Part shown: positions 41,003-58,127 of the stretch, in pieces
How positions within the stretch are numbered: position 1 is the stretch's first letter
Layout of the letters: each line of letters starts with the position of its first letter
Source: Lachnospiraceae bacterium
Lineage (GTDB): Bacteria > Bacillota > Clostridia > Lachnospirales > Lachnospiraceae
DNA length: 64,000 nucleotides
Reading direction: 5' to 3'
Assembly: GCA_022483465.1 (NCBI GenBank)
Contig: JAKVNF010000001.1
Coordinates: forward strand, 558,001 to 622,000
Program-made: the position numbers and the translations under genes
The notes under the pieces: model-generated
What the model saw: only the letters and a program-made list of their open reading frames with translations
Databases searched by the model: none
Told to the model about the DNA's origin: nothing

Positions 41003-41003
41003 T

Positions 41004-41311
41004 GGCGTTAGTAAAGAACCGGGTTGACGGGTTCCATACCACAACCTCCATGGTGAACTCTCGACGCGATAATGTCTGATGAAGATATAGAATCCCCATT
41101 TGGAGCTCTTTTCTTCTCTGCATAATGCCTATCTTGTTATTTATAGTCACATGCTCGGCAAGTGGGTGTATGCTTTTAGGCAATCTAGGTGATGCTTTGT
41201 TACATGATGCAACACAGCACGGATAGGAGTGTACCCAGCTCGAGCTCAAAGTGAGGGATTAGTGGTCTCATGCTAGGCGATCGCTTATCAACCCGTTTCT
41301 TAACTAACGCC
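41004..41311. mobile_element. MITE-like 308-bp repeat, copy 1
   Basis: Ends GGCGTTAGTAAAGAACCGGG and its near-reverse-complement (about 24-bp imperfect inverted repeats with two mismatches). It is flanked by the 8-bp direct repeat TTGTCTTT (40996-41003 and 41312-41319). It differs from copy 2 at about four positions and from copy 3 at about eight. No transposase is encoded; an open but unconvincing 81-codon frame spans it on the minus strand. Confidence 0.92.
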
Positions 41312-41319
41312 TTGTCTTT

Positions 41320-41760
41320 TTATGTCTCGTCTTTGGTGTTTTGGCCCTGCAGAAGGTCGAGCAGCGCCTCGCTGTGGCTTCTTCTCTTCTTCGTGGCAGT
41401 GCCAAGAAGGCACACGTGCCGGTACTGGCCGTAGCGGCTCTCCACATAAGACTTGACGTTCCCCGCCTGCATCTCCTTCTCGTATCCCGCCCGGTACCCG
41501 TCCCAGTCGGTGACGTGGTCCTGGTAGCCCTTTAGAAGGTCCGGGGAGGGGGCAAGCCGCACGTCGTGGACGTAGGCCGCCCCCGTCAGGGCGGGGACCA
41601 GGTAGGCGAGGTCCCGCTCCTTCGTAAACCCGCAGAGCTGATTCGAATTGTGCAGCCGAATATCCAGCACCAGGTCCGTGTGGTGGTCCTTCAGTGCTGT
41701 AAAGAACGCCTCCGCGCTGGTCTCATAGGCGCTCAGAGTAAAAAATTCCGTGTCCTTCAT
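41320..41760 (-). CDS. DUF488-family protein
   Basis: A 146-residue cytoplasmic protein with the DUF488 pattern: an N-terminal FFTLSAYETSAEAFFTALKD, LVLDIRLHNSNQLCGFTKERDL, AYVHDVRLAPSPDLLKGYQ, and a late CLLGTATKKRRSHSEAL. The function of the family is not established. The start at 41758-41760 has GGGAGG 5 nt upstream. Its stop lies 9 bp from MITE copy 1, which has separated the gene from most of its terminator. Confidence 0.85.
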   Translation of the reverse strand: MKDTEFFTLSAYETSAEAFFTALKDHHTDLVLDIRLHNSNQLCGFTKERDLAYLVPALTGAAYVHDVRLAPSPDLLKGYQDHVTDWDGYRAGYEKEMQAGNVKSYVESRYGQYRHVCLLGTATKKRRSHSEALLDLLQGQNTKDET

Positions 41761-41847
41761 CGCTGCCTCCCGGGCCCGGCATCCTCCGGGCCTCATGATG
41801 ACAGCGTAACACCAGACGCACTTTGATTTCGTTGCAACGGCAACGCA

Positions 41848-42165
41848 TCACCCCGCGTGCGCCCGCTTCTCTTCCATCTCAAAGGGCGCCGGCTTTCCGC
41901 AGCAATACCCCTGCAGGAGCTCACACCCAGCCTCGGAGAGGAAGGCCGCCTACTCTCTCGTCTCCACGCCCTCTGCCAGGGTGTGGATGCCAAGGTCCGC
42001 GGCGCAGTCCAAAATTCCCTTGACGATGCGCCTTGCCGCGCTGCTTGCGCCGTCCAACTGCCCGCCCTCGTAGGTATAGACCGCCATCGGCACGGGCAGA
42101 ATCTCCAGTGCCCGCCTCACGTCGTCCGAAATCGCTTCGCTTGTCTGCTTCGTGTTGTCTTCCAT
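41848..42165 (-). pseudogene. Remnant of a cyclic-di-GMP (EAL) protein with internal deletion
   Basis: The first 40 codons resemble the beginning of a GGDEF/EAL protein (DVRRALEILPVPMAVYTYEGG). They pass directly into the end of an EAL domain (ILDCAADLGIHTLAEGVETRE), so the middle of the gene has been deleted. A TAG follows VETRE, after which the frame continues with the usual EAL ending (EAGCELLQGYCCGKPAPFE) to a TGA at 41848. It has no catalytic centre. It adjoins IS605 element 2, which may have mediated the loss. Confidence 0.8.
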
Positions 42166-42239
42166 ACTGCGCTCCTGCTGTCTGTCAATCCAGGCAGCGC
42201 CCTCTCTTTCTGCAGCCTGTGCCTGCTTCCCAGTGTGAA

Positions 42240-42437
42240 CTACCCGCAGTTAAAACTGCGGGCTTCGGTGGTTTTTCCACCTCATTTGAGTTGCCTTCAA
42301 CGGTGTCTTATACACAGATGGCTGTGATGCGCCGGAAATCTGAGGCCTAGCCCCATCCGAACCGGATGGTTGGTGCGCCGTTGCTTCTCTATTCACCGCT
42401 TTCGCGGGCAGTCACGGCGATTGATGTTTCTATATGG
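42240..42437 (-). ncRNA. Probable omega RNA region of TnpB element 2
   Basis: The segment between the tnpB stop and the right-end hairpin corresponds to the guide-RNA scaffold of IS605 elements. It has several inverted repeats (for example 42243-42262 and around 42350-42390). Inferred from position. Confidence 0.45.
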
Positions 42438-43956
42438 TTATGCGGCTTGCTCTTGATGATAAAGCCGCAGACCTTCCTCTTTGATGTTGATTGCTGCCTG
42501 CCAGTCGCGATCGATGATATTGCCGCAGACAGGGCAGACATACAATCGATCACTTAGCGTCAGATCATCTTTCCTGGAACCGCAATGGCAGCATGTTTTG
42601 GATGATGCATACCATTGATCGATTTTGACAAGTGTATGTCCGAAACGCTTGCATTTGTATTCCAGCATGCGTGTAAACATGCCCCAGCCTACATCCATAA
42701 CAGATTTGCCAAGATGAAGGCTTTGCGCCATGGCATGCATGTTCAGGTCTTCAATGCAGATCACGTCATAATGATATGCGAGGTTATAGGACAGTTTGTC
42801 CAGAAAATCCCGCCTTTGTGCCGCTATTTTTTCATGCAGCTTTGCGATTCTGCGCTTCTGACGCTCGTAGCGCTTTGATCCACGTTTCATACCCGACAGC
42901 ACATGCTGAAGTTTTGCAAGTTTCTCTTCCTGCTGACGATAAAACCGTGGAAACTCTGCAGTGTCACCATTGCTGTCCACATACAAGTGCTCCAATGACA
43001 TGTCCAATCCGATGGCACGGATACCTTGGTTATCAGTATGCGTGTTTGCAGATGGAGCAGCTTTTGGTTCCTTGTATTCGTACTTGAGTGATACGAAAAA
43101 TCTCCCGTTGCGGTCCATGGAGATGGTGGCTGATTTGAGAACGCCGCCTTTTTTGATTGGCGTTAGTAAAGAACCGGGTTGATGGGTTCCATACCACAAC
43201 CTCCATGGTGAACTCTCGACGCGATAATGTCTGATGAAGATATAGAATCCCCATTTGGAGCTCTTTTCTTCTCTGCATAATGCCTATCTTGTTATTTATA
43301 GTCACATGCTCGGCAAGTAGGTGTATGCTTTTAGGCAATCTAGGTGATACTTTGTTACATGATGCAACACAGCACGGATAGAAGTGTACCCAGCTCGAGC
43401 TCAAAGTGAGGGATTAGTGGTCTCATGCTAGGCGATCGCTTATCAACCCGTTTCTTAACTAACGCCTTTTGATTTTGCGGTGCAACTTCAGCTTGATGAG
43501 CGTTTTCAGCTTTGGAAGTTTCAACAACCCGGAGCTTTCATCATAGGTAAGATTGGAGTGTCCTCCATTGCTGACAACGTTTGTTGTGTAGGATTGCGCT
43601 TCGTGCTTGCTATGAAAGCGAGGCATTTTGGCTCTTCCTTCGTAGAAATTGGCCCACGACTGTTCGTATTCGAGCTGAGCATTTGCGAGTGCAAGCGAGT
43701 CAGCCTGCTTAAGCCACGGGCACTCTTCCTGGTCTTTATAATCCGCAGGAGTGTTGTGAAGGTGTATCCCCATTTCGTTGTACATGAACAGGTCATCTTC
43801 CAGCATGCGGTTTTTGAGCCACCGTTTGGCGCCAAAATTGAAACGAATAAAGCTGCGCTGATCGGCGGTAGGAACAATTTCGTCTTTATAGCAGATGTAG
43901 TAAACGTCTGTATTTGATGATTTTGGTTTGTTCTTCTTTTTGACAGCCATAATCAA
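42438..43956 (-). pseudogene. tnpB: TnpB of element 2, interrupted by MITE copy 2
   Basis: The N-terminal part (43467-43956, about 160 codons from MAVKKKNKPKSSNTDVYYIC) and the C-terminal part (42438-43158) are separated by the 308-bp repeat plus an 8-bp duplication. Joined, they give a full TnpB with RuvC residues in AIGLDMSLEHLYV, ICIEDLNMH and DRDWQAAINI, and a CxxC-CxxC zinc site (CCHCGS, CPVCG). The N-terminal fragment ends in the repeat. A frame opening at a TTG in the repeat reads in phase into the C-terminal fragment, so a truncated nuclease domain could in principle be made. Confidence 0.9.
43159..43466. mobile_element. MITE-like 308-bp repeat, copy 2 (inside tnpB)
   Basis: Same length and ends as copy 1. 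It is flanked by the 8-bp direct repeat TTTTGATT (43151-43158 and 43467-43474). Removing the element and one repeat restores the tnpB reading frame. Confidence 0.95.
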
Positions 43957-44363
43957 TACGCCTTGCTCTGACGCTCAATGTATCTGCGGATGGTTTCTTC
44001 GGAAACATCGCCTACGGTTTCAACGTAGTACGAATGATTCCAAAGCTGCCCTCTCCACAAATGGTTTCTTAACTCCGGATGCCTTTCAAATAGCATGCGG
44101 CCCGAAATGCCCTTCATGTATTTGACCAGATTTGTGATCGACAGCTTCGGAGGTGCAGACACGAAGCAATGTACATGGTCAGCAGTGCCGACTTCGCATT
44201 CGTGGATGGTGAACCCCTTATCCTTGGCGACGGAAAGCAGAATGGCTTTCAGATCCTTCTCGATTTCCGGGGTTAATACCTTCTGTCGGTACTTGACGCA
44301 CCATACCACATGGTAATTGATATTGCACACGCATGTTCGGTAATGCACGAGGTTTGTTTTCAT
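43953..44363 (-). CDS. tnpA: IS200/IS605 transposase TnpA, element 2
   Basis: A 136-residue Y1 single-strand transposase that looks intact. The HUH pair is in ADHVHCFVSAPP, the helix SITNLVKYMKGISGRM follows, and the catalytic Tyr is in EETIRRYIERQ. It cuts and joins single-stranded ends at hairpins, with no target duplication. The ATG is at 44361-44363 and its stop overlaps the tnpB start by 4 bp. As the only undamaged tnpA in the window, it could in principle mobilise element 2 or act on related ends. Confidence 0.93.
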   Translation of the reverse strand: MKTNLVHYRTCVCNINYHVVWCVKYRQKVLTPEIEKDLKAILLSVAKDKGFTIHECEVGTADHVHCFVSAPPKLSITNLVKYMKGISGRMLFERHPELRNHLWRGQLWNHSYYVETVGDVSEETIRRYIERQSKAY

Positions 44364-44621
44364 ACCTATAGTATAGCAGATATATAGTGGTATGTGTATA
44401 ATCTATTTATAAAATCTTGTTGTAAGCTAAGCAATGCGTTGCAGCCGAGGAAGCGGGCTCGCTTTCATCTCGGCAATTGAATTGCCGAGAATTCCCGCTC
44501 GCAATCTTAAACAGCGGCATGGTATATTCCAAGTCGACGATATTTTATATTTTCCGGCATTGTTTATGATTATTTTGCACACATCTGCATTTTTCTGTGC
44601 ACTCTGTGGACAAAAAAAGGC

Positions 44622-44646
44622 CGGAAGATGAAATTTTCATCTTCCG
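44622..44646 (-). terminator. Terminator after tRNA-Ala
   Basis: A stem of about 11-12 bp (44622-44633 with 44635-44646) followed on the minus strand by T7, 12 bp after the tRNA 3' end. Confidence 0.85.
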
Positions 44647-44657
44647 ACCGGTCCTCG

Positions 44658-44730
44658 TGGAGCATACGGGATTCGAACCCGTGACCTCCTCCATGCCATG
44701 GAGACGCGCTCCCAACTGCGCTAATGCCCC
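44658..44730 (-). tRNA. tRNA-Ala (anticodon GGC)
   Basis: The acceptor stem pairs GGGGCAT with ATGCTCC, the T-arm is ACGGG-TTCGAAT-CCCGT, and the anticodon loop ATGGCAT gives GGC. CCA is not encoded. Confidence 0.94.
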
Positions 44731-44818
44731 GTGCAGCTCACCGTGATATCATACCGGATCCGGGGCTGTCCCGCAACTGTTTTTTGGTTGGTTTCGTATT
44801 TTCTTCTCCCCTGCTGCC

Positions 44819-45103
44819 CTAGCCCGCAAGAAACCAAAGGAGCGCGCACCAGAGAATCAAAGCGAGGGGCACGAGGATCCGAAACTTCCACTTCCGGGTC
44901 TTGTGGTGAAACGTAAACATCCCAAGCAGCGCCCCCAGGGCGCCGCCAAGAAAAGCAAAAAGGATCAATACCCGCTCCGGGATCCGCCACCTATGGTGCT
45001 TTGCCTTTTGCTTGTCCGCGCCGTAGAGGCAAAAGGCGATGAGGTTCACCGCCAGCAGATAGATCCATAAAAGTGCCGGCATCCCGGCAAAGGCAGCTGT
45101 CAT
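44819..45103 (-). CDS. DUF1294 small membrane protein
   Basis: A 94-residue protein with three hydrophobic helices (about 8-27, 45-62, 75-93). The family pattern NLIAFCLYGADKQKAKHHRWRI is followed by PERVLILFAFLGGALGALLGM, then FHHKTRKWKF. The function of DUF1294 is unknown. Its start overlaps the end of the frameshifted TetR gene by 4 bp, suggesting co-expression and perhaps a regulator-target relation. It is downstream of no clear promoter of its own. Confidence 0.9.
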   Translation of the reverse strand: MTAAFAGMPALLWIYLLAVNLIAFCLYGADKQKAKHHRWRIPERVLILFAFLGGALGALLGMFTFHHKTRKWKFRILVPLALILWCALLWFLAG

Positions 45104-45619
45104 ACCATTTTCTCCTTTGTATTGTCCTCGAGGGCGGGCACCCCGCCCCGCAGGTACCAGTGCAAAAAGTGTACCACCTGCTCGTCCGGCATCTCGGGGT
45201 GCGCCGCGGGGAACGCAAGGGCCGTCACAAGGTCCGCGCAGACGAGCTCACTGCAGAGAACGTCCACCCCCCATCCCATCCGCATCCTTCGGCCCCGCCA
45301 TCCTGGCAAGGGGAAGGAGGATTGCCCGGAGTTTTGCCGCAAAGGACGCCGCATCCTGCCGCAGGAACCTCGCGCGAAGGGCCGTGCCGCAGCAGGAAAA
45401 GAGGGTGGAGAGGGCCTCATCCAGAAGGTCCTCCTCTGCGGCGTCCGCAAGGTCCGCCGCGCTGTCAAAGTAGGCGTAGAAAGTGGAGCGGTGGTACCCC
45501 GCCGTCAGGGCCGCCTCCTTGGCGGTCATCGCGCCGCCTTTGTTCCTGGCAAGGCACCGCCAGTAGGCGGCGATCCAGTTCTTTCTGGTTGTGTCCGTGA
45601 AATCCAGGCGCTTGTGCAT
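45100..45619 (-). pseudogene. TetR-type regulator, frameshifted at a C6/G6 tract
   Basis: The first 115 codons give a TetR-like protein with the helix-turn-helix MTAKEAALTAGYHRSTFYAY. At the six-base tract 45267-45272 the frame ends in a stop 8 codons later. The continuation (VDVLCSELVCADLVTALAFP to the end at 45100) is open in the next frame. One base change in the tract would restore a protein of about 170 residues. It could be a decayed gene, a phase-variable switch or a sequencing error. It overlaps the DUF1294 start by 4 bp. Confidence 0.75.
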
Positions 45620-45756
45620 GGCTTCCTTCCAAAATCCGACACGCGGGCCGCGCCGTGTCGCACGGACTCCCCCCGGCCTGCGGTACCGTTCATTCTACAG
45701 AGATCGAAATGCCGGCGCAAGATCGCCGGCGGAGAGGGGACATAGGAATCCATATC

Positions 45757-46485
45757 ATGGCGCACTGTTTGCGCCTGGAAAAATCGGAAACCTGGAGACG
45801 AGAAACCGCATCTACAAGCCGGCGGCGGAGGACCGGCGGGCCTTGAGGCGGCAAGGGTTCTGGCCCTTCGGGGACACGAGGTCACCCTCTTTGAGAGGAA
45901 AAGGCTCGGCGAGCGGATGAACGAGGCCTCCACCCCGGACTTCAAGGCGGACATCCGGCGGCTCATCGCCTACTGCGAAAACCAGATGAAAAAGCTTTCC
46001 GTCCGCGTGGTGATGGGGGAGGCGACGGAAGATGCCCTCTCCTCCTTCGACGCGGTGGTCGCCGCCACCGGGTCCCATCCCATCACGATGAAAATTCCCG
46101 GGTATGACCGGAAGAACGTCCGCACCGCGGCGGATGTGCTCAATGGGGCGCCCTGTCCCGGAAAGCGCGTCGTCATCATCGGCGGCGGGTCCGTCGGCGC
46201 CGAGACCGGGATCTGGCTTGCCGAGCAGGGGAAGGAGGTCACCATCGTCGAGATGCGGGAGGGGATCCTCCTCGATGAGATGGCGGCGACGAAGATCGTG
46301 GACCTCGGGATGATCCAGAAGCTCGGGATCACCCTCCTTCCCTGCCTGCCCTGGAGCGGATTGACGAGGCCGGCGTCACCGTGCGGGATCTTCCGATCCC
46401 CGTCTACCCCGCCGGCGACACGAAGCGCCCCCGCAAGATTTACGATGCGATCCACGAGGGCTACACCGCGGCCCTGCAGATCTGA
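45757..46485 (+). pseudogene. Remnant of an old-yellow-enzyme / 2,4-dienoyl-CoA reductase-like flavoprotein
   Basis: Three pieces in different frames are seen. A start resembling the flavin barrel (LFAPGKIGNLETRNRIYK) passes directly into the FAD-binding GGGPAGLEAARVLALRGHEV. The next part is the NAD(P) domain (VVIIGGGSVGAETGIWLAEQ). A frame change near 46350 leads to an end like DTKRPRKIYDAIHEGYTAAL, stop at 46485. The barrel with the catalytic residues is deleted. It was probably an NADH:flavin oxidoreductase of the enoate reductase type; it is not functional. Confidence 0.8.
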
Positions 46486-46495
46486 GGCGCCGGCG

Positions 46496-47145
46496 ATGTC
46501 AGGCAAAATTCTTCTGCACTGGCCCGAGATCTCGGTCTGGATCGCGGGGGTCCTGCTCCTGGTATCGTACTTTATCCAAGGGGTCCTCGAGACAAGGACC
46601 CTCCTCCTGCTTGCGGCCTTCCTCTTTCTCCACTTTTTCGAAAAGTTCGGCTTTCCCGGGGGCTTTCCCCTGGTGGGGCTCTGCGCGGAGTTCGGCGTGC
46701 GGAGTGAGGACCCGCGGACCTGGTTCCTCAATCGGTGCAATGCGATGTTTCGCAGCTGGTGGTTTGCAGCCTGGGTGTACGGGGGCGCGCTCCTCTTCCC
46801 GGGGTGAAGTTTCTCGTCCTTGCCGCGATTCTCTTCTCCTTCCTCGCGTGCGGGATGCACCTTGTATTCTTCCCCCTCCGGCTCCACCGGCTGTACAACC
46901 TGGGGCTCTTCTCGGCGGTCTTTCTCCTGACCCCGGTCTCGATCCGGCACCTGGTCCTTGCGGGAAGCGCCTTTGGCCTTCTGGACTTGATCCTTGCCAT
47001 CTGCTGGATTCTCCTCCACTACTGGATCGGCTTCCGCTCCCCCTGGTACCAGAGACTCGGGCGGAACGATCCGAAGTGCACCTTCTCCGGGGAGGATGTG
47101 AAAAAAGGCCTTATTCCCAAATCCGAATGCGTTCTTGCTGGGAAC
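46496..47145 (+). pseudogene. HXXEE-like membrane protein, frameshifted
   Basis: The first frame encodes helices and the pattern HFFEKFGFPGGFPLVGL, similar to HXXEE-domain membrane proteins. It stops after FPG at 46807. At the GGGG of 46801-46804 the next frame continues with further membrane helices (FLVLAAILFSFLACGMH, LGLFSAVFLLTPVSI, LDLILAICWILLHYWIG). No natural stop is found before the terminator at 47149, so the 3' end is also altered. The family has no known function. The ends given are approximate. Confidence 0.65.
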
Positions 47146-47148
47146 GCA

Positions 47149-47179
47149 AAACGGACGGCAGCCGGGCTGCCGTCCGTTT
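47149..47179. terminator. Terminator between convergent HXXEE-like and dehydrogenase genes
   Basis: A perfect 14-bp stem (47149-47162 with 47166-47179), 3-nt loop, with short T runs on both strands. Confidence 0.8.
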
Positions 47180-47224
47180 GTGATCATATCAATTTCCGGC
47201 GATGGTCGAATGACTGGATTGGAA

Positions 47225-48215
47225 TCACGCCTTCTCCGCGTAGCCGGCGGCGCGGCTCACCACGCTCCGAAAGTGCCCCGCCCCGTGGAAGGCGAGGTAG
47301 TTTGCCGCCGCGATCTCCCCGATCTTCTCCAGGGTGATGGGAAGGTGAAAGCCCCCGGCGATGTGGGGTGTCAGATACAGGTTGGGCACCTGGTAGAGGG
47401 GGCTCTCCTTCGGCAGGGGCTCCTCCTCGAAGACGTCCAGCCAGATCCCGGCAAAGCGGGAGGAGATGGCAAGGTCTTGAAGGGCTGCGGTCTCCAGGGC
47501 GCTCCCCCGGCCGGCGTTCATGAGATAGCTTCCCTCCTTGCAGGAGGCAAGAACCTCCCGGCTGACGAGGTGGTATGTCTCGCCTGTCCCCGGAAGGGAG
47601 AGGACGATGACGTCCGCGCGGGATGCTTCACTTCGCAGCTCCTCCACCGGGTGGATCTCGTCGAGCTCCTTGGGGCAGCTGTCCACATGGCGCCGGATCC
47701 CGGAGAGGGTGATCGGGTGCTCCGGCTCCGCAAAGGCACGGATCCTCCTTGCGAAGGAAAGCCCAATGTCGCCGGTTCCCACCAGGAGCATCCGCTTTCC
47801 CGCAGGGGAGTCCACCGGCCCCGCATCCTGCCAGAGACAAGCCTGTTGACTTTCCAGGTAGTTCGAGATCTTCTTCATCATGACGAGCAGCATGCAGACC
47901 AGGTACTCCGAGAGGGCGGTGCCGTAGGCCCCGGTGGCACAGGTCAGCACCGTGTCATCCGGGAGCACCCCGGGCGCGGTGTAGGCCTCTGCCCCGGCGC
48001 TGTTTAGCTGTACCCAGGATAGATGGGACGCGCCGGAAAGAAGTGCCGGCGGGACGTTCCCGATGAGGGCGTCCGCCTGCGCGAGCATCTTTTCGGTCAC
48101 GTCGCTCTTGTTGCAAAAGCGAAGTTCATCGCCGTAGGTGCGTGCGACCTCCTCCAGTTTTTCCCGCTGCGGCCCGGCAAAGGGCACGGTTACCAGGACT
48201 TTTGCGCTTCTCATG
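47225..48215 (-). CDS. D-isomer-specific 2-hydroxyacid dehydrogenase
   Basis: A 330-residue NAD-dependent dehydrogenase. The coenzyme motif is LLVGTGDIGLSFARRI, the catalytic Arg is in MNAGRGSALE, the Glu in WLDVFEEEPLP, and the His in YLTPHIAGGFHLP. The fold and length match the phosphoglycerate dehydrogenase/glyoxylate reductase superfamily; the exact 2-keto acid is unknown. The start at 48213-48215 follows GGGGGAAAAAGC and overlaps the end of the GGDEF-EAL gene by 5 bp, an unusual coupling of a metabolic enzyme to a signalling gene. Confidence 0.92.
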
Positions 48216-50806
48216 CTTTTTCCCCCTCCTCTTTCGGAAACAGGTCCTCCTGCGCCATCGCGGCAGCGGCCTCGCTGGCGCTCCCCGGGCGGCCAAAGTA
48301 GTAGCCCTGGATGCGGTCGCAGGAGAGCGCCTCCAGGAGCTCGTACTGGTCTTTCGTCTCCACGCCCTCGCATAGGGCGGTCTTTCCCACGTCGTGGATG
48401 AGGCCGATGATGTCCCTGAGAAACGACTCGCCCTGCGCGGTCCCGTAGGTGGTAAGAAGCGAGCGGTCGATCTTGACGACGTCCACCGGGATCCTCGCAA
48501 GATAGCTCAGCGACGAGTAGCCCGTGCCGAAGTCGTCCATCAAAAGGCTGATGTGCAGGCCCCGTATCCGCGCAAAGAAGGCGCTCGCCTCCTCCCAGTT
48601 CTGGATGAAGAGGCTCTCGGTGATCTCCAGGTGGACCGCGGAGGCCGGCACCGCATACCTGGCGAGGAGCTCCTGCAGGCAGGTCTCGTACTCGGTGTCC
48701 CCGAGCTGCCCCGCCGAGTAGTTGATGGAGACGGGCGGCGGGGTAAGGCCCGCATCCCGCCACGCGCGGATCTGGCGGATTGTCATCTCCGTGGTCATGC
48801 GGCCGATCGTGCGGATCCAGCCATTCTTCTCGGCAATCGGGATGAAGACATCGGGGCCCATGGCCCCGTCCTGCATCCGGACCAGGGCCTCAAACCCGAC
48901 GAGCTTCCCGGTCTTCGTGTCCACCTGGGGCTGGTAGACCATGTAGAAGCCATCGTGCTGGATCGCGGAGAGGACCCGGGCCCTTGCGTGTTCCGCCTCC
49001 AGCTCCTCCTGCCGCATCTTCTTTGTAAAGAGCAGGCACCCGTTCTTGCCGCCGCCCTTGACCCTTGCCACCGCGGCCTCGGCGCAGAGGATGACATCCT
49101 CCGCCGCCTCGCCCCGCTCGGCGTTGGCGGCGCCGACGCTGGCAAAGAGCCGCCCCCGGTTCATGCCGCTCTTTCGGACGGTCTGGAACACCTCGTTGAC
49201 GTCGGCAAGAAGCGGATCCTCCTCCCGGATCTGGTATCCCGCGATCCAGATCAGGAACTCATCCCCGCCGTAGCGCGCGAGCTCCCCGCCGTAGCGGGCC
49301 GCGATCGGGGCAAGCTCTCCCGCGATCTCCCGAAGGAGCCGGTCTCCCTCCCCGTGGCCGTAGGTCTCGTTGATCTCCTTGAAGCCGTCCATGTCCGAGA
49401 GGACCAGGGCGTAGGACTGCTTTGCGGCGGCCTCTTTCCGAAGCCGGGAGAGCGCTTCCTGGCGGGTCAGAGCCCCGGTCAGGCGGTCGTGTTCCCCGGC
49501 GATGCGAAGCTCCTCCGCGCTCTTTCGAAGCGCCTCCTCGGCTCTTCGCCTTCTTCTCACCTCCAGCTGAGAGCCCACGATGATGAGAAGGAGCCCGCCG
49601 AGGATCAGAATCGCCGGGGGGGAGAATCCCACCGTATCTGCTAAGCAGCGTCACCGGCGCCCCCACGAGGATCGTGCCGGCGGGAAGATCCCGGACCCGA
49701 AGGCCAAAGCGCTTGAGCCCTCCGTAGCTTGCGATCGTCTCCGGGGTCCCAGGCGTCTCCCGGAGTCCAACATTGGAGAGGTTCAGACTCCCGTCCAGGA
49801 CCTCGTGCATCGTGGTGACCGCCGCGGCGGCCACCACCCCAAAGGAGGACGCCTTGCCCGCAACAGCTCCGTTGTTGTACCCGCCCTTGCTGTTTCGAAA
49901 GACCGGCACGGAGGCCGCCTGGGAGACGAGCTTTGTCATCTCGGCGCTGGTGTAGTAGGTACCGGAGCGATCCGAGTGGCAGGTGAGGAGCAGGATCAGC
50001 GCATCCTCCGGGAGGGACGCCACCTTCTCCTTCAGCTGGGCAGCGCTGTAGTGGTTGCTGCGGCAGACCTCCAGGGAGAGATCCGCATAGCGGGGATCAT
50101 CGGAGAGGTTCAGAAAGGCCTCCCCCTCCGCCTGCCCGGTCTTGCTGCCGTCGCAGATTGCGAGCACCTCCTTCGTGTCCGGAAACAGGGAGAGGGCAAG
50201 GGCCAGGGTCTCGGGGACGTTGGTGCCCTCCAGGTACCCGGTGAAGTTGTCGCAGGCTGCCGCCTCCTTCCCCTCCTCCACGTCCTCCACGCCGTAAAAG
50301 ACGACCGGGAGGTCCGAAAAGAGATCCTCCCGGTGGTCCATCACAAAGCCAAGCGCCTCATCGTCCGCCACGAGGACGCCGCTGTAGCTCTCCTCCGCCA
50401 GGAGGTTTTTCACATGGCTTGCAAAGAACTGGTAGTCCCGCAGGGTGTGGTGCTTGAAAAAGTCCATGTTCACAATGTCGAACTCGAGGCCGCTGGCATC
50501 GCCGGAAGAGAGCATGCCATTGATCTGGTCCTCGTAGTTGACCGCGGTGGGGTCATAGGAGGAGAGAAAGAGCACCTTTTTCGTGCTGCTCTCTCCGCTC
50601 CTTCCGCTGGTGCTGGGGTCGTCGTAGGTCATGTCGGCCTCGGTGACCGCGGACGCGGTGACGATGCCGCCGCTCTCCTTCACCGTCTCGGTGAGCCCGA
50701 TCTGGCGGACTAAAGTCACAAGGAGGGCAAGTCCTCCCAGGGCCGCGGCTGCAATGCCCAGCACCATGAGACGACTCCCGGTTCTCGTTTTCCAGTTCCG
50801 CTTCAT
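48211..50806 (-). pseudogene. Membrane GGDEF-EAL protein with periplasmic-binding-like sensor, frameshifted at a C7 tract
   Basis: The 5' frame (from the ATG at 50804-50806) has a membrane helix (about 15-35) and an extracellular domain (70-390) like ABC-type substrate-binding proteins (KKVLFLSSYDPTAVNYEDQI, LPVVFYGVEDVEEG). Around 49616-49622, in a run of seven C on the coding strand, the frame changes. The rest follows in the next frame to 48211: a second helix, a GGDEF domain with intact ARYGGDEFLIW and a complete EAL domain (FEALVRM, EITES, DDFGTGYSSL, EGVETK). With one base changed it would be a normal full-length two-helix sensor. Lesion, phase switch or sequencing error are all possible. 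Confidence 0.82.
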
Positions 50807-50886
50807 CTTGGACCCTCCATCCTCACGTGTCACGACCCGAATCGCCCGTGAAGTATAGCAGGATTTTTAGCAGGTGACAACAGTTT

Positions 50887-53800
50887 TCACCGATCTTCCG
50901 GCACCGTGTAGTCCGTGACGATCTGGTCCGCGTCCCGGGCCTTCGCAAGATACATGTACCGGTCCGCCCGGGAGACGATGGACTTGACGTCGTCCCCCGG
51001 GTGCACCACGGTGATGCCGATGGCGGCCTGGCAGCTGATCCGCTGCCCCTCGTTCTCGATCTCGGTGCGGTTGGAGAGCGCAAGGAACCGCTCCGCCGCC
51101 TGCTCGATCTCCTCCGGGCGCTTGAGCTGCAAAAGGCCCACGAACTCATCCCCGCCCCAGCGGGCGAAGCGGTCCGCGTGCCGCCCGAACTTGCGAAGGC
51201 CAAGGCCCAGCTCTTTGAGCAGCTGGTCGCCCACGGTGTGGCCGTAGCGGTTGTTGATGTCGTGGAAGCGGTCCACGTCCGCAAAGAGCACCGCAAAGGG
51301 GTGGCCGGTGCGCTCGTAGCGCTCGAGCTCCTCCCCGATGCAGGCCTCCATGTAGCGGCGGCCGGGAAGGCAGGTCAGGGGGTCCCTGGTTGCCACCTCG
51401 TAGATGTCCCGCACGAGGCTGTCGTCGTAGGCGACATCCCCCAGGGTGACAAACAAAGAGACGAGCTCCGTGATCTTTCCGCTCTCGTCCCGGAGCGGCA
51501 CCAGGGTGTTGCGGATCAGCAGGTTGTCGCCATCCTTTTTGCGGATGAACATCTGCATCGTCTGCACCTGCCCGGAGGTGTAGGCGACAAGCGCCGGGCA
51601 GCTCGGCCCGAGGATCGTCTCCCCGCTGACAAAGCTGCAGCCAAAGGGCTGATCCACGCAGCGCTTGCCGATGACCTCCTCCTGGCTGTAGCCAAGAAGC
51701 CGCTCGGCCTCTCGGTTCCAGTACAGGATCTGCTGGTCCGGGCGCAGGATGTAGCAGCCAAAGGGAATCTCATCGAGGAAGCGCTCCAGGTTCAGGCGCG
51801 GCCCCTCGGTCTTGGGGATCACCGCGCCGTCCTTTCCCTGCTCCTCAAAGAAGGCAGAGAGCACCGTCCGCCGCACCTGCATGGCCTCGTCGCCATAGGC
51901 GACCCAGGTCCTGGCAAAGAGGGTGCAGGGGATGCCGTCCACCCGGTGGATCGCCTCGATCCCCCGGGAGAGCTTCTCCGAGAGGGCGATGATCTCGCCC
52001 TTGGCGGGCGCCGCCGCGAGAATTCCGAACTGGCCGGCGCCGAGCTGAGCCGCCGTGGCGCTGCTCCCCGCCTCTTTTGCGATCACGCTCTTGCAGGCAG
52101 AGAGGACGCGGCTTCGCACGGTCTTTCCGAAGTGGGCGCCGATCCGCGCGAGCTCCGGGATCTGCAGGACGATGAGGCCGAAGGGCCGCTCGCCCTCGAT
52201 GTTCTCGCTCTCATAGTCCGAGAGGTCCTGGACAAACTCCGCCGCGGTCAAGAGCCCGTCGGTGTCCCGGCCTGCCGGGTGGAGCTGGAGCGAGTGCTCC
52301 AGCGCCCGCTCATCGAGGAAGAACCCCATGAGGCCGCTGATCCTGCCGTTTCGGTAGGTGGGCCACTTGGTGGCGCGGATCGCGTGGGTCGTGCCCTTTG
52401 CAATGCACCGCCCGGGCACGAGAACCTGCATCTCGCCGGAGGAGATGACCTGCTCCTCGACGTTTCGATAGAGCTCGTTGCTCGGGTGCCAGTTCATGTC
52501 CTCGTCGGTCTTTCCGAGGATCGCAGACTCGTCGGCAAAGCCGTAGTAGTCGAGAAACGACTTGCTGGCGCCGAGAAACCGCCGGTTCTTGTCCTTCCAG
52601 AAAAGGGGCAGCGGGATGTGGAGGAGCAGATTGTTCCAGAGAACATCCGCCTCGTTCGCCTTGCCGCTGGTGAGGCTCTGGTAGGGGTCCTCCCCGCACT
52701 GGGCTTTCTCCCGCATGGCGGTGTCGATGTCCATGCGGCGGATGAGGTAGAGGATTTCGCTCCTTCCGGTGTCCGCCGCAAAGTGCATCCGGTGCGCCAT
52801 CCAGACGTACCTCCCGTCCTCCTCCATCGTGCGGAAGGCCCCGGACAGGGTTCCACGGGGCGCCGCAGGAAGGCGCTTTGCCAGGGTGTCGGGATCGAGA
52901 AAGGCCGCGTACCGCTCCCGGTCCGCCGGGAAGATCTTCGGCAGAAGATCGGAGAAGACGCCGTCTGTTGCGAGAATCTGGGCTTCCCCCGCCTCGCCCT
53001 CGAAATCGTCCGAGAAGGAGAGGCTCCGGAGGGTCTTTTTCTTCGTGTCGATCGCGTAGGCGTACTCATAGAACTTCAGCACGTTGAGGAGGGTTCTTGC
53101 CTTCCTGACAAGCTTCTCCCTGCTCCCCGCGTAGTTGTAGATGCGGACCGCAAAGAGGTTTCGTTCGGGGAGGGACCCGATGAAGCGATAGCGAAGGACC
53201 CGCTCACTCCCATGAATCGGAAGCAACAGTTCCCCCTCCATGCCGGTGGCTGCCGCGTAGCGGGCGGCGTCCGCATACCGCGCGGACTCCTCCTTGCGCC
53301 TTCCGTTGATGTCCTCCTCGATGGCAGTAAGGTCCGCGTAGCCGTCCTCCTCGGCCTTCTTGATGGCCGCATCGTTGAGGGCCAGGGCGCGCAGGGTCCC
53401 CGCATGCTCCTCCACGAGGACGAGCGGCGTATCGGTCAGGAAGTTGATCCGCTCCGCCGCGCCGTAGTAGGCCTTGTGTCCTGCGGACTCGATGGCAACC
53501 CCCCGCTCCCCTAGGCGCTCGAGGGTCTCCTCAAAGGGCAGGGGCTTTCCGAAGTAGTAGCCTTGCATCATGCCGCAGCCGCTGTGCATCAGAAAGTCCG
53601 CCTGCTCCTTTGTCTCCACGCCCTCGGCCAGGGTCCTGCCCCCGATCTTCTGGTTCATCGCGACGACGGAGGCGATGATGCTGCGGGAGCGGGGCGTGTC
53701 CTCCTTCAGGAAGGCCATGTCCATCTTTAAGACGTCAAAGCTGCAGTCCTTTAAGAGGTTCAGGGTGGAGTAGCCGCTCCCGAAGTCGTCCATCCAGACC

Positions 53801-55152
53801 TCGTACCCGGCGTCCCGGAACCGATCCAGGGCCTCGAAGATGACGTCCTCCCGCGAGATCAGGATGCTCTCCGTGACCTCGATGTGGAGCATGCGCCGGG
53901 GGATGTCGAAGGACTTGACGAGGTTCTCGATCTCCTGAAAGATGTCGCAGCAAAGAAAGTCCACCCGGGAGAGGTTGATGGACACCGGGATCTCGGGCTC
54001 GTTCTTTTCACTCCTTGCCGCGATCCGCTCCACCACCTGCCGGATGACGCAGATGTCAAGCCGCCAGACAAGCTGGGCCTTCTCCAAGGGCTCGATGAAG
54101 GCGGCCGGCGGGAGAAGTCCCCGCACCGGGTCGTCCCAGCGCGCCAGGGCCTCCATGCCGCAGAGCTCCCCGGAGAGGGTCCGGATGATGGGCTGGTAGT
54201 AGACCCGAATCCACCCCTTCCGGATCGCCTCGTCCAGAGAGGAGGTCACGTACTCGGCAAGCTCCAGGTCCTTGCCCATCTCATCGGTGTAGTCAAGGAA
54301 AAAGGTGTTCACGTGCTTTCTGCAGTCGTCACAGGCAATCTTCGCCCTGGTGCAGGCGGTCTCGGGGCCAAGGTCCCGGTCAATCCACTCAAAGATGCCG
54401 ATCGTGCAGTCGACGGTGCTGCCGGGCGCCATCTTCCGGATCATGTCCCGAAGGCGCTCCGCCTGGGCCCTTGCCTGGCGCGACGGCGTGTAGATCGCGA
54501 AGTGATCGCCCCCGAAGTGGGCCGCTGCTCCCTCGGGGAACCATCTGCGGATGCAGCGGGCGATGGCCTTCAAGAAGCCGTCGCCGTAGGAGATTCCATA
54601 CCGGAGGTTTAACATCCTAAAGTTGACAAGGTCCAAAAACAGGACCGTCGTCACGGCGTCCGGGTGGGACTTTTGGGAGGCGGCAAGCGCCGAGAAGAAG
54701 GCGTGCATCTCAAGAAGCCCCGTCATCGGGTCGATGCCGGGCTTTGTCTCCTGGTCCGGCGCCGCGACGAGGTCCATCGTGAAGTCGACGATGATGGGAT
54801 TTCCGCCGGAGTCCCGGCAGGACTGGGCCACCACGTGGACCAGGTGCCGGTGGTTCTTGCGGGTAATCAGCGCGGCGTCAAAGGACTCGCAGCTGCCCAG
54901 GTTCTGTGCGAGCCGCCGATAGGAGCGCTGCACCCGCTCCCGGTCCTCCGGCGCCACGTACTCCCAGAAGCTCCCCTCGCAGCCCGTAAAGGCGTCTTCC
55001 CGGGAGTCCGCCTCCAGCATGTCCAGGCAGCGCTGATTTAGATAGAAGGGGAAGCCGCTCCCCGGCCGGAAGGCATAGACCGCCCCCGGGAGCGCATTCA
55101 GCGTATCCTTCAGGTCCGTCGCCGAACTGTTCCCATCCCTCTTTGCTTCCAT
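50887..55152 (-). CDS. Giant multi-domain cyclic-di-GMP enzyme (PAS, three GGDEF, one EAL)
   Basis: A 1421-residue soluble protein. Order: PAS (about 15-130); GGDEF with altered GGDHF (214-218); EAL (about 305-547) with all catalytic residues (E334, N393, E425, D455/D456, K476, E511). Next come a PAS/GAF-like region (560-810), PAS (840-945) and a degenerate GGDEF with GAGQF (1038-1042). It ends with PAS (about 1122-1240) and a C-terminal GGDEF with intact RWGGDEF (about 1331-1337). It can probably both make and break cyclic-di-GMP, with input through several PAS domains. No membrane segment is present. It is not broken, unlike its neighbour. Confidence 0.92.
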   Translation of the reverse strand: MEAKRDGNSSATDLKDTLNALPGAVYAFRPGSGFPFYLNQRCLDMLEADSREDAFTGCEGSFWEYVAPEDRERVQRSYRRLAQNLGSCESFDAALITRKNHRHLVHVVAQSCRDSGGNPIIVDFTMDLVAAPDQETKPGIDPMTGLLEMHAFFSALAASQKSHPDAVTTVLFLDLVNFRMLNLRYGISYGDGFLKAIARCIRRWFPEGAAAHFGGDHFAIYTPSRQARAQAERLRDMIRKMAPGSTVDCTIGIFEWIDRDLGPETACTRAKIACDDCRKHVNTFFLDYTDEMGKDLELAEYVTSSLDEAIRKGWIRVYYQPIIRTLSGELCGMEALARWDDPVRGLLPPAAFIEPLEKAQLVWRLDICVIRQVVERIAARSEKNEPEIPVSINLSRVDFLCCDIFQEIENLVKSFDIPRRMLHIEVTESILISREDVIFEALDRFRDAGYEVWMDDFGSGYSTLNLLKDCSFDVLKMDMAFLKEDTPRSRSIIASVVAMNQKIGGRTLAEGVETKEQADFLMHSGCGMMQGYYFGKPLPFEETLERLGERGVAIESAGHKAYYGAAERINFLTDTPLVLVEEHAGTLRALALNDAAIKKAEEDGYADLTAIEEDINGRRKEESARYADAARYAAATGMEGELLLPIHGSERVLRYRFIGSLPERNLFAVRIYNYAGSREKLVRKARTLLNVLKFYEYAYAIDTKKKTLRSLSFSDDFEGEAGEAQILATDGVFSDLLPKIFPADRERYAAFLDPDTLAKRLPAAPRGTLSGAFRTMEEDGRYVWMAHRMHFAADTGRSEILYLIRRMDIDTAMREKAQCGEDPYQSLTSGKANEADVLWNNLLLHIPLPLFWKDKNRRFLGASKSFLDYYGFADESAILGKTDEDMNWHPSNELYRNVEEQVISSGEMQVLVPGRCIAKGTTHAIRATKWPTYRNGRISGLMGFFLDERALEHSLQLHPAGRDTDGLLTAAEFVQDLSDYESENIEGERPFGLIVLQIPELARIGAHFGKTVRSRVLSACKSVIAKEAGSSATAAQLGAGQFGILAAAPAKGEIIALSEKLSRGIEAIHRVDGIPCTLFARTWVAYGDEAMQVRRTVLSAFFEEQGKDGAVIPKTEGPRLNLERFLDEIPFGCYILRPDQQILYWNREAERLLGYSQEEVIGKRCVDQPFGCSFVSGETILGPSCPALVAYTSGQVQTMQMFIRKKDGDNLLIRNTLVPLRDESGKITELVSLFVTLGDVAYDDSLVRDIYEVATRDPLTCLPGRRYMEACIGEELERYERTGHPFAVLFADVDRFHDINNRYGHTVGDQLLKELGLGLRKFGRHADRFARWGGDEFVGLLQLKRPEEIEQAAERFLALSNRTEIENEGQRISCQAAIGITVVHPGDDVKSIVSRADRYMYLAKARDADQIVTDYTVPEDR

Positions 55153-55296
55153 GCCCGCTCCTTTCTCACCCTGTCGTCAGCCCTTTCAGGTCAAAATCCG
55201 ACTGGTAAACCAATTTTTTATTGTACACGCAAGGGGTCCCGGGATCAACGAACGGATTCCATAATGACGCCAAAACATACTTCCCAGGCCAAAGAA

Positions 55297-55332
55297 AGCC
55301 TGCCGGCACCCCCAGAGGGGAGCCGGCAGGCT
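55297..55332 (-). terminator. Terminator of the repeat lipoprotein gene
   Basis: An 11-bp stem (55297-55307 with 55322-55332), extended by a C/G inner part, with TTTCTTT following on the minus strand. Confidence 0.8.
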
Positions 55333-55355
55333 CTGCTTCTTTCTTGAATGTTGGA

Positions 55356-56199
55356 TTACTCTGTTTCCTCCAGGGCATTGTAGATGAGGTCAGCCTCCTT
55401 CTCGGAGAGGGCGGCTGCGGCGTAGATGTTGCCGTCCGCGTCGATGATGAAGTAGTTCTCGCCGTCGGTCGCATAGCCGAGCTGGGTGTTGCCGATCGAG
55501 ATCAGGTAGTAAGGTGTGCCATCATCGGTCTCGGCGTCGGAGACGCTGTACTCGGCGAAAACCTCGTCGGTGCCGTCGTTGACATAGGCGACATCGCCGG
55601 CGGAGCTGGTGTAGAAGGCGATGATGAAGTCATTTCCGCTGCCGTCGTTGGCGTAGTAGCCGTCCACGTAGGTGACATCCGTGGCAGATGCCGCCTCATT
55701 GTCGAGCTCTCCGGAATCTGCCATCTGCAGGGCGGAGTAGAGCGCGTCTGCCTCCTCCTCGGAGAGGGCGGCTGCGGCGTAGATGTTGCCGCTCGTGTCG
55801 ACCAGATAGTAGTTGGATCCTTCGGTGTAGTAGCCGAGGGCGGTGTCGCCCACGGTGATGAGGTAGTAGTCGGTGCCGGAATCGGTCTGCGCCTCCTCGA
55901 CTGTGTACTCCGCAAGGGCCTCATTGGTGCCGTCGCTCACATAGGCGACATCCCCGGCAGCACCCTCGAAGAAGGCGATGATCAAGTCGTTCCCATTCCC
56001 GTCGTTGGCGTAGTAGCCGTCCACGTAGGAGATCCCATCGGCGGAAGCGGTGTCCTCGGTGGCAGCCTCGGCGGCCTCCGTCGCTGCTGCGGTGGTGACG
56101 GCATCCGCTGACGCATCTTGCGATCCGCCGCAGCCCGTCATCAGGGCGGCGCCCAGTATCCCGGTCATCGGTACACAGACAAATCTCTACTTTATCGTT
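55356..56199 (-). pseudogene. Two-repeat lipoprotein with a lost start codon
   Basis: The frame from ATG 56168 encodes 270 residues. A lipobox (LMTGC) lies near residues 9-13, followed by a Thr/Ala/Glu linker and two tandem repeats of about 105 residues (each begins YVDGYYANDG and ends GNIYAAAALSE). The true start seems to be upstream: AAGGAG is followed after 9 nt by ATA AAG TAG AGA and then RFVCVPMTGILG, so the start codon is ATA and the third codon is a stop. Beginning at 56168 there is no binding site and no basic signal region. The function is unknown. Confidence 0.7.
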
Positions 56200-56267
56200 T
56201 TACACTCCTTGCTTGGTTATCTACTCGTTTTCTGACGTTTCTGTCTCTTCTTGCAGATAGCTGCCCC

Positions 56268-56654
56268 TTACAGATTCAGGGCCTTCAGCTCCTCGACGGT
56301 CAGGTCCACCAGCTTCTCGGCGGTCTTCTGCTTCTTTCCGACCATGCCTCTCAGGCCGCTGAGGCCGTCGGTCACGCTGTCGAGAGCCATGTTGACGGCG
56401 GCGTTTCCTGCGCCCGCCACCTCATTCTTGGACACCTGAAACTTGGTGGCCGTATTCTTGCCCAGGCCCGTCACCGGGAGAATCCAGACCTGGTTCCAGC
56501 GGTCCAGCGGCGGGAAGGTGATGATGGTGGCGAGACCGTGCTTGGTCAGGGACGGCTCTCCTGCGGAGAACTTCTTGTCCCGGATCGCCTCGTAGAACTC
56601 CTCGATGGTGTAGGGCTTGCTGACAGTTACGTTTTTAACCTTCACTCCAAACAT
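56268..56654 (-). CDS. Hypothetical cytoplasmic protein
   Basis: A 128-residue protein without signal or membrane segment, not recognised as a named family. The first half is mixed alpha/beta (FGVKVKNVTVSKPYTIEEFY, GLATIITFPPLDRWNQVWIL), the second half helical with a conserved-looking MVGKKQKTAEKLVDLTVEEL end. The start at 56652-56654 was chosen because AAGGAG lies 8 nt before it; the frame is open 9 nt further. It lies between the broken lipoprotein and the histidine kinase fragment. GC and codon use match the host. Confidence 0.7.
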   Translation of the reverse strand: MFGVKVKNVTVSKPYTIEEFYEAIRDKKFSAGEPSLTKHGLATIITFPPLDRWNQVWILPVTGLGKNTATKFQVSKNEVAGAGNAAVNMALDSVTDGLSGLRGMVGKKQKTAEKLVDLTVEELKALNL

Positions 56655-56788
56655 ATGGCACACTCCTTATTGTGGTTTTGATTGGTTTGTTTTCCTTGCT
56701 GCACCTTTATTCTGCCAGCTGAAAGGCCCCTCCAAAAGTGCTGAAATGTCAGGGTAAGTGTCGAAATCATCAATTGACAGATGGAAAT

Positions 56789-57375
56789 TTATGTATTTTT
56801 CGGTGCCGTCAGGTCCAGGTAGACGTCGGAGAAAAAGACCCCGTCCCGGTCGTCGAAGTGGGCGTCCACGCCGTGGAGCCTTGCTGCGCTGGTGATGCTG
56901 GCAAGGCCGATCCCCACCTCCTCCCGCTTGCTCGAGACATAGAACCTCCCGAAGCGCCGGGGCTTCCCGCTGCAGCTGTTCTCCATGTGAATCACCAGCT
57001 TGTTCAGGTGCCGGACCGCGGTGAGGCGCGCAAAGGGTTCCTGCATTTCTCCCCTTGCCACCGCCTCTGCCGCGTTCTCCAAAAGGTTCCCGAAGACGAC
57101 GCAGAGGCTCTGCTCCACCTCCGGGGCAAGGCTCCTTGGGAGGGATAGGGAGATCTGGGCCCTTGCCCCCGCCTGCCTTGCAAGCTCGGTGTAGTGGCCC
57201 ACCACCGCGTTCACCGCGGGGTTTTCGCAGTACCGCTCTCTCCTCCCCTCCGGGATGCTGGAGCACATGGTCACCAAGTGGGCGCGGATGCCGGCAAGGT
57301 CTCCGCTCCCCGCCATCTCCGAGAGGGCCGTCAGCTCATGGCGATAGTCGTGGCGAAGCCTTGCAAGCTCCCTCT
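56789..57375 (-). pseudogene. Histidine kinase, C-terminal fragment (GHKL ATPase)
   Basis: The fragment contains a phospho-acceptor-like helix (RELARLRHDYRHELTALSEM) and a GHKL ATP-binding domain with an N box (VFGNLLENAAEAV) and a glycine-rich VGIGLASI, as in AgrC-type sensor kinases. In the minus direction it starts abruptly. The matching N-terminal sensor part, ending in a coiled coil (QVQEEKKHQKTLLAHE), lies beyond the IS110 element at 59684. The kinase was therefore split by mobile DNA; the frame is open upstream to 57463 with unrelated sequence. No response regulator is adjacent. Confidence 0.75.
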
Positions 57376-57796
57376 CTAGATAAATTTGTACATAATCCAC
57401 AATGAGCCTTAATCTATAGGGGTTTGAGAGTAAGACCTCTGTGAAAAATGTATGCTTTAACATTACAACAGTGCATGACTACGGGTGAAATCGGTGTCTC
57501 TGGAGGTCCGGACACCTATGATTTCTGTGTTCAGGGTACAAAAAGAAAAGCATCCTCTTAATTGTCTGACAATAGCGACATTAGCTGTCAGTATAAGAAA
57601 CGCGTTTCAATCTCCCTGCTTCACCATGGCTGCCAACCTCTCATGTCTAGCGGAGTCTGCCTTCGGTCCCACCCGGAGGCATCCCAAATTCCTTCGTACA
57701 GCCGATCCCATAGTTCGGAGCGCCGCTTATGCTTTCGTTCGGGGTCATATGCCCCATGGAGTAAATCCTGCGGCTACGCTCATGCTCTGTTTGTTT
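57376..57796. other. Unexplained 420-bp segment between kinase fragment and IS110 element
   Basis: No convincing gene. The base composition is more AT-rich than the host, with short inverted repeats near 57510-57530 and 57565-57580. It is neither kinase sequence nor recognisably part of the IS110 element, whose inverted repeat begins at 57797. It may be a remnant of another insertion, or a non-coding flank of the element longer than its terminal repeats suggest. Confidence 0.5.
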
Positions 57797-57819
57797 GAGA
57801 GCACCCCTGTAATTCAGTA

Positions 57820-58127
57820 GGCGTTAGTAAAGAACCGGGTTGATGGGTTCCATACCACAACCTCCATGGTGAACTCTCGACGCGATAATGTCCGATGAAG
57901 ATATAGAATCCCCATTTGGAGCTCTTTTCTTCTCCGCATAATGCCTATCTTGTTATTTATAGTCACATACTCGGCAAGTGAGTGTATGTGTTTAGGCAAT
58001 CTAGGTGATGCTTTGTTACATGATGCAACACAGCACGGATAGGAGTGTACCCAGCTCGAGCTCAAAGTGAGGTATTAGTGGTCTCATGCTAGGCGATCGC
58101 TTATCAACCCGTTTCTTAACTAACGCC
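57820..58127. mobile_element. MITE-like 308-bp repeat, copy 3 (inside the IS110 end)
   Basis: Same ends and length as copies 1 and 2, with about eight substitutions relative to copy 1. It is flanked by the 8-bp direct repeat ATTCAGTA (57812-57819 and 58128-58135), which is itself part of the IS110 inverted repeat. Confidence 0.95.

Follow-up and report, generated by a model that had tools for sequence, protein, structure and literature searches.

What kind of element has left three nearly identical 308-bp repeats in one stretch of a Lachnospiraceae genome (the window, 64,000 nucleotides), and which enzyme moved them? An earlier note on the window had taken them for MITE-like insertions of a recently active family. 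We conclude that they very probably belong to a non-autonomous 308-bp MITE that has undergone a recent burst to approximately 114 copies in this one genome, and that a transposase of the IS1595 family moves it in trans, the likely source of this enzyme being one of two resident elements, here called IS A and IS B.

The three copies in the window

Each of the three copies is exactly 308 bp long and is flanked by a different perfect 8-bp direct repeat. Copy 1 (41004..41311, + strand) lies between duplications of TTGTCTTT at 40996..41003 and 41312..41319, copy 2 (43159..43466, + strand) between duplications of TTTTGATT at 43151..43158 and 43467..43474, and copy 3 (57820..58127, + strand) between duplications of ATTCAGTA at 57812..57819 and 58128..58135, all read on the + strand. 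The ends form an imperfect 24-bp inverted repeat, as the earlier note had described, with the sequences GGCGTTAGTAAAGAACCGGGTTGA and GGCGTTAGTTAAGAAACGGGTTGA; in copy 3 these repeats occupy 57820..57843 (+ strand) and 58104..58127 (- strand), and their sequence is common to all three copies. A degenerate pattern of the ends fits all six window ends with 0 mismatches, and found nothing at up to 3 mismatches in 100 shuffles of the window. Lengths and individual duplications were thus as first reported; the copies had been said to differ at four to eight positions, and while copies 1 and 2 differ at 4 and copies 1 and 3 at 8, copies 2 and 3 differ at 10, which raises the upper figure accordingly. 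The individual duplications also bear out separate insertions. The cut-and-paste mode proposed alongside is not established by these data, and a choice between conservative and replicative transposition would be a matter of inference.

The longest start-to-stop frame wholly within any of the three copies has 33 codons, in agreement with the earlier statement that no transposase lies inside, and this gives no support to a conserved internal gene; a transposase is encoded elsewhere in the genome, by IS A. The surroundings are less uniform than had been claimed, mobile or decaying DNA having been noted around all three copies. Copy 2 has an IS200-type tnpA frame on one side and an IS605 OrfB/TnpB frame on the other; the listed start of the latter falls within copy 2, which lies either between the two frames or within the 5' portion of the OrfB/TnpB frame. 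Copy 3 adjoins an IS110 transposase; an 83-aa frame extends a few bases beyond this copy. Among the frames scanned beside copy 1 there is no mobile gene; the neighbours are a DUF488 gene, a regulator of the TetR type and frames that matched no Pfam family.

Copies, targets and unoccupied sites

A genome-wide search (4.30 Mb in 4 contigs) recovered 114 exact MITE left ends (24+90), 58 of them forward and 56 reverse. When 105 copies were read with their flanks, perfect target duplications were present in 99, being 8 bp long in 89 and 9 bp in 10. The six copies without a simple matching duplication comprise two outer parts of nested elements, one interrupted copy, one that is off by a single base and two with unrelated flanks. 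Intact copies number 102 and represent only six sequences (58, 22, 16, 3, 2 and 1 copies), so that 96 of the 102 fall into three classes of identical copies, and the earlier suggestion of recent activity is borne out. The window holds one member of each large subfamily: copy 1 belongs to S2 (22 identical among the copies read), copy 2 to S3 (16 identical copies) and copy 3 to S1 (58 identical among the copies read). Hence the family displays what defines a MITE, namely short elements without a transposase gene, inverted repeats with a target duplication, and multiple copies.

Insertion follows a target rule. The duplications have the form WW-N4/5-WW, with WW at both edges in 87/89 of the 8-bp and 10/10 of the 9-bp cases, against a background rate for WWN4WW of 3.3% within the window. 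By codon score, 85 of 99 sites are intergenic. A hairpin followed by a T-run occurs within 60 bp of 14/93 sites, compared with 64/744 GC-matched and 67/800 unmatched controls (Fisher p 0.056 for the matched set), and targeting of terminators by the MITE is unproven.

Unoccupied versions of the insertion sites were found elsewhere for 21 of the 94 sites compared (the 99 less five queries from two tandem arrays), one of them from another organism (L167). They include uninterrupted versions of the copy 2 site (L020, 100% over 400 bp) and of the copy 3 site (the overlapping L051/L052, likewise 100% over 400 bp). The MITE had no match in 61 congeners, of which many assemblies are fragmented and whose collections may omit near relatives, and 396 other genomes of the family yielded one 24-bp match only. 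Fixed sites lacking empty alleles, which would have told against mobility, were therefore not seen, since no other searched genome has copies and 21/94 sites are unoccupied elsewhere. Plasmids and phages gave no match to the MITE. Viral contigs contained neither a match to a 28-base right-end pattern nor a relative of the transposase, and the plasmid records that match the IS A transposase (78) are all below 60% identity.

The preference for intergenic sites and the near-identity of the copies might also be expected of a unit kept by the host, such as a small RNA, a regulator or an attachment site, rather than of a parasite. This we regard as very improbable, given the individual duplications, the unoccupied sites, the insertions within IS A and within other MITEs, and the 61 congeners without a match. 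Nor does the interior appear clearly more structured than its shuffles. Whole elements fold with z-scores of -3.79 and -4.70, whereas the interior, trimmed of 30 bases per end, gives z 0.88 on the + strand (152/200 shuffles as good) and -1.62 on the - strand (15/200 as good); the whole-element scores thus derive mainly from the inverted repeats. An RNA function for the MITE was rejected on these grounds. Furthermore, no promoter or terminator was predicted in copy 3 or in the DNA flanking it, and Rfam returned three tRNAs and nothing else in the window.

Candidate suppliers of the transposase

IS A is a 1,214-bp element with 44 full-length intact transposase ORFs (342 aa) in the genome; IS B is a relative with two intact ORFs. 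The IS A transposase matches NF033547 with 116.6 bits (cut-off 75, E 1.4e-33) and PF12762 with 45.6 bits (cut-off 27, E 9.3e-12), and that of IS B scores 110.6 and 46.4 bits against the same models and cut-offs. The N-terminal zinc-binding domain NF050000 is present in both (42.5 bits in IS A, 38 bits in IS B, cut-off 28). A DDE_Tnp_IS1595 domain, the zinc-binding domain, a single ORF and 8-bp duplications, the last checked on IS A, place both elements in the IS1595 family, a bacterial relative of the eukaryotic Merlin transposons in which the target duplication is usually 8 bp; the MITE differs from such elements in carrying no transposase. Among 29 IS A copies read, 20 have 8-bp duplications (18/20 with WW...WW) and five have 9-bp duplications (5/5); of the four without a matching duplication, three have theirs swapped among each other and one is a base off. 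ISL3 elements also produce 8-bp duplications and have GG ends, and the earlier note had named an ISL3- or IS1595-like enzyme. We give practically no weight to the first of these, because the transposases of those full-length elements that were read with such ends are of the IS1595 family and no ISL3 model matches them; the IS1595 half of the proposal stands.

Each MITE end differs over 22 bases at three positions from the IS A end and at one from the IS B left end. The similar ends of IS A, its identical 8/9-bp WW...WW signature and the IS B left end together indicate that an IS1595-type transposase acting in trans most likely moved the MITE, although we infer the movement itself. The transposase, supplied by the resident high-copy IS A or by its relative IS B, would recognise the ~24-bp ends, GGCGTTAGT..AAGAA.CGGGTTGA, and cut AT-edged targets (WW-N4/5-WW) with a stagger of 8 bp, or less often 9 bp, which would create the target duplications. 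The MITE evidently did not arise from either partner by simple internal deletion, since its interior (~250 bp) lacks significant similarity to both; significant matches are confined to the ends, and the best interior match is 21 bp, to IS B2 (E 0.46).

The partner ends are similar and not identical to those of the MITE, and the right end of intact IS B copies differs from the MITE left end at 3/22 positions, so a third IS, now lost or unsampled, might be the supplier. Such an IS, with identical ends, would have expanded the MITE while IS A was a bystander sharing its target rules; the three mismatches to IS A per end, an interior related to neither candidate, and the mere two intact ORFs of IS B, whose left end is closer, all agree with this. 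It disputes the supplier alone and not the MITE reading, and its odds overlap with those of our preferred explanation. Nevertheless, we consider it unlikely. The end pattern matches 339 places (172+167) at up to three mismatches, of which 114 MITEs and 44 IS A copies would account by arithmetic for 316, the rest being plausibly IS B and fragments, and hence another abundant element with such ends need not be invoked. IS A shares the duplication signature, is itself nearly clonal (24/29 copies read form one group of 18 and one of 6, each without internal differences), and has its right end on some of the MITEs. In these, the S5 MITEs (n=2), the last 29 bases match the IS A right end, compared with 9 in S1, and a perfect 9-bp duplication flanks one of them. 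S5 thus corresponds to S1 with an IS A end, and such hybrids lend indirect support to movement in trans by the partner transposase.

The compositions of S5 and of S7, which is S2 with one S1 allele, suggest that some exchange between copies is possible, and with the 58 identical copies they might point to gene conversion or assembly collapse, and not a recent burst, as the origin of the near-identity. This seems quite improbable. Three subfamilies with 4-10 fixed differences persist side by side, the only possible mosaic among 102 intact copies is the single S7 copy, duplications are intact in 99/105, and the partner IS A is likewise near-clonal.

Some MITEs stand head to tail in arrays whose spacers all consist of the array's own 8-bp duplication: a four-copy array, S4-S3-S4-S3, at TAAGCAAT inside IS A, and a two-copy array, S1 and S1, at AAATTGTT. 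A MITE is nested in a MITE at two places. Once its inserts are removed, the IS A copy with four MITEs inside is identical to six intact copies of the element over its full 1,214 bases. Tentatively, and with considerable doubt, we suggest that the transposase could re-target its own duplication, giving arrays with the same spacer, and that nested composites could themselves transpose as longer, novel elements; the arrays may also stem from unequal exchange between the 8-bp repeats. Were re-targeting true and general, arrays and new MITEs would arise by a route inherent in IS1595-type transposition itself.

Comparison with known elements

The general view of MITEs is unchanged, and the family belongs to a known kind of element, of which it is an unusually clean case: the MITE has burst in a bacterium that still contains its likely helper, approximately 114 MITEs sharing one genome with 44 intact transposase genes of IS A. 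The system permits direct measurement of target choice (WW-N4/5-WW), of the 8/9-bp stagger, of array formation and of the end variants that the helper accepts. Such data would be useful for the Merlin transposons, eukaryotic relatives of IS1595 for which 8- or 9-bp duplications and GG ends are described (PMC8101967).

The IS1595-associated MITE of Haloquadratum walsbyi (partner ISHwa6) is tabulated with 165 bp, 7 copies, 25-bp inverted repeats and 8-bp direct repeats (PMC3852290, Table 4). It is likewise short and non-autonomous, with 8-bp direct repeats and an IS1595 partner, and the same source reports that its MITEs resemble their partner IS solely at the ends. That host is an archaeon, whereas the present family, of 308 bp and ~114 copies, resides in an unrelated organism. 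Among the bacterial MITEs reviewed in PMC10969869, Correia, and ERIC in some hosts, exceed 100 copies at mostly intergenic sites, as here, and pneumococcal repeats are reported to insert into one another. According to that source, both QMITE2 and Chunjie show much variation in size and in sequence, unlike the present family with 96/102 intact copies in three classes of identical copies; relative to Correia, ERIC, QMITE2 and Chunjie as that source presents them, the intact high-copy partner IS is a further difference.

Copy number and uniformity

The three window copies of the MITE (copy 1 at 41004-41311, copy 2 at 43159-43466 and copy 3 at 57820-58127) are each 308 bp long, as the earlier note had described, with imperfect inverted ends of a kind that window shuffles never yielded, and each is bounded by a different perfect 8-bp duplication. 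Their pairwise differences are indeed small, although the maximum is 10 and not the 8 originally given. Frames contained entirely in any of them reach 33 codons at most, which bears out the claim that they contain no transposase. The genome (4,300,133 bp in four contigs, C1 to C4, the window being C1 558001-622000) was searched with the MITE ends, as the same note had proposed, and holds 114 exact 25-base left ends, 24 with C and 90 with T at position 25, a count that copies with an altered left end escape. They are divided 52/24/17/21 among C1/C2/C3/C4 and 58/56 between strands. At least 40 full-length copies are 100% identical to copy 3, according to a DNA search in which 40 of 219 candidates were scored.

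Flanks were analysed for 105 copies, the other nine being partly inner members of tandem arrays with common flanks. Intact 308-bp elements account for 102 of these and comprise only six sequences (S1, 58 copies; S2, 22; S3, 16; S4, 3; S5, 2; S7, 1); the non-intact three are a single S6 copy, into which something else has inserted, and two copies that form the outside of nested elements. Window copies 1, 2 and 3 represent S2, S3 and S1 respectively. Copy 2 is adjoined by IS200-type tnpA and OrfB/TnpB frames (42441-44363) and copy 3 by an IS110 transposase (58293-59639); sequences 97-100% identical to the flanks of both are present at further loci, and so the genome has multiple copies of other IS families as well.

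Partner insertion sequences and target sites

A full-length insertion sequence with such ends and 8-bp duplications had been suggested as the partner to seek, and two IS1595-family elements, IS A and IS B, were located among the genomic places bearing the end pattern. Neither is present in the window, where the pattern, at up to three mismatches, matches the six MITE ends only. The transposase is 342 aa long in IS A (1,214 bp; locus L061 1517-2730) and 336 aa long in IS B (1,187-1,204 bp); both are assigned to the IS1595 family by NCBIfam and Pfam, and both have a zinc-binding N-terminal domain. Full-length, uninterrupted ORFs number 44 for IS A, of which 20 encode an identical protein; IS B has two intact ORFs, and fragments are also present. 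Over 22 bases, each MITE end has three differences from the IS A end and one from the IS B left end; the MITE interior matches neither element.

Perfect duplications flank most MITE copies (8-bp in 89/105, 9-bp in 10/105), with two A/T bases at both edges in 87/89 and 10/10 cases respectively, where WWN4WW (W, A or T) occurs at a background rate of 3.3% of window positions; A is favoured immediately 5' of the 8-bp duplication (49/89) and T immediately 3' (48/89). IS A has the same signature: among 29 copies read at both ends, 20 have 8-bp and five 9-bp duplications, four show no match, and the edges are WW...WW in 23 of 25. These 29 copies also fall into groups of identical sequence (18, six and five singletons, one of which carries a MITE array), and hence both partner and MITE look recently spread. 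The mismatched duplications of three IS A copies, in L095 (C1:634651), L085 (C3:423826) and L093 (C1:474794), pair in a circle (ATCCGGAA, TTCTGATT and TTTTGAAA, the last involving an IS B beside the IS A of L095), as expected from chromosomal rearrangement by recombination between copies, or from a mis-join in the assembly. Two broken IS B copies, in L063 (C2:28904) and L064 (C2:210043), have the same 9-bp duplication, TTTTGAAAA, which would point to duplication of a segment or to repeated use of one target.

A codon-usage score, trained on the window, places 14 of 99 MITE sites within genes. For control WWN4WW sites the numbers are 884 of 2,057 (flanks; Fisher p 2e-9) and 819 of 2,090 (window; p 1.2e-7). 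Only this contrast is usable, because the score is rough: of random positions it rates as genic just 1,686 of 3,000 (56%) in the window and 931 of 2,100 in the flanks. This intergenic bias may come from target choice, selection or both. Judged by eye, a terminator-like hairpin, AAGACAACACGGC...GCCGTGTTGTCTT (window 40957-41003 with 41312-41325), has copy 1 at its 3' end and T-run; its loop is too long for it to count in a genome-wide test for terminator hairpins at MITE sites, which was itself marginal only (p 0.056).

Empty sites, composites and arrays

Unoccupied sites, which the earlier note had also proposed to seek, were queried with the two flanks of each MITE fused. Compared with all loci read, 26 of 99 joined sites, array members included, had a match across the junction; under stricter limits, and with five queries from two tandem arrays removed, unoccupied versions were seen for 21 of 94, a lower bound since the comparison covered part of the genome. 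Window copies 2 and 3 are among the 21 and copy 1 is not; one unoccupied version belongs to another organism (L117 vs L167, 87%).

In L065, four head-to-tail MITEs in the order S4-S3-S4-S3 (the third classed by its single diagnostic base) interrupt an IS A copy within its right end, all separated by TAAGCAAT; without them, this IS A equals six uninterrupted copies at all 1,214 bases. S4 is also found singly, in L154 and L164, and L128 holds two S1 copies with AAATTGTT present three times. Insertion into an existing duplication, followed by duplication of the array, would explain L065, as would unequal exchange. A 624-bp MITE-in-MITE, S1 inside S3 with inner duplication AATAACAA, occurs in both L066 and L139. 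It is identical in the two at 624/624 bases, its flanks and duplications on the outside differ between them, and it therefore most likely moved as one unit. The last 29 bases of the two S5 elements match the IS A right end, compared with only nine in S1, and one of the two has a perfect 9-bp duplication. In L109 the interrupted S6 copy adjoins a 445-aa frame (12-1349, plus strand), a putative ISAzo13-type transposase by its look; L061 has a similar frame (1022-1540), without a Pfam match, which an IS A copy interrupts.

Distribution and known systems

The MITE has no match in 61 congeners, an absence that is not strict, since only 25 combine a completeness of at least 90% with a contamination of no more than 5%, and fragmented assemblies can lose repeats. 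Nor was it matched in plasmids or phages, and the sole match in a further 396 genomes from the family, which include at least one congener, is 24 bp long (E 7e-4). Of 391 further genomes in the order, one has the end pattern, twice, at up to two mismatches. When named genomes were scanned with the IS A transposase, three loci were confirmed, in a Eubacterium sp. MAG (98%) and Fusobacterium naviforme ATCC 25832 (74%), each with one end pair belonging to the IS, and in an Oscillospiraceae MAG (39%), where a search found no end pattern; relatives at E <= 1e-20 are present in only 2/61 congeners, at 46-48% identity. This distribution would fit horizontal acquisition of the IS and a subsequent burst.

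Open-licence papers, judged from titles and abstract openings, included none on the present MITE. MITEAba12 is a further published element (PMC6382973). One IS1595 MITE has been described, from Haloquadratum walsbyi, an element of 165 bp with 25-bp repeats and 8-bp duplications, in 7 copies (PMC3852290). Duplications are usually 8-bp for IS1595 and 8- or 9-bp for the related Merlin (PMC8101967), and a review covers repeats in high copy number, those between genes and nested ones (PMC10969869). The present MITE is an IS1595-type element, recently amplified, with a probable helper in the same genome, and its family stands out by its uniformity, arrays and hybrids.
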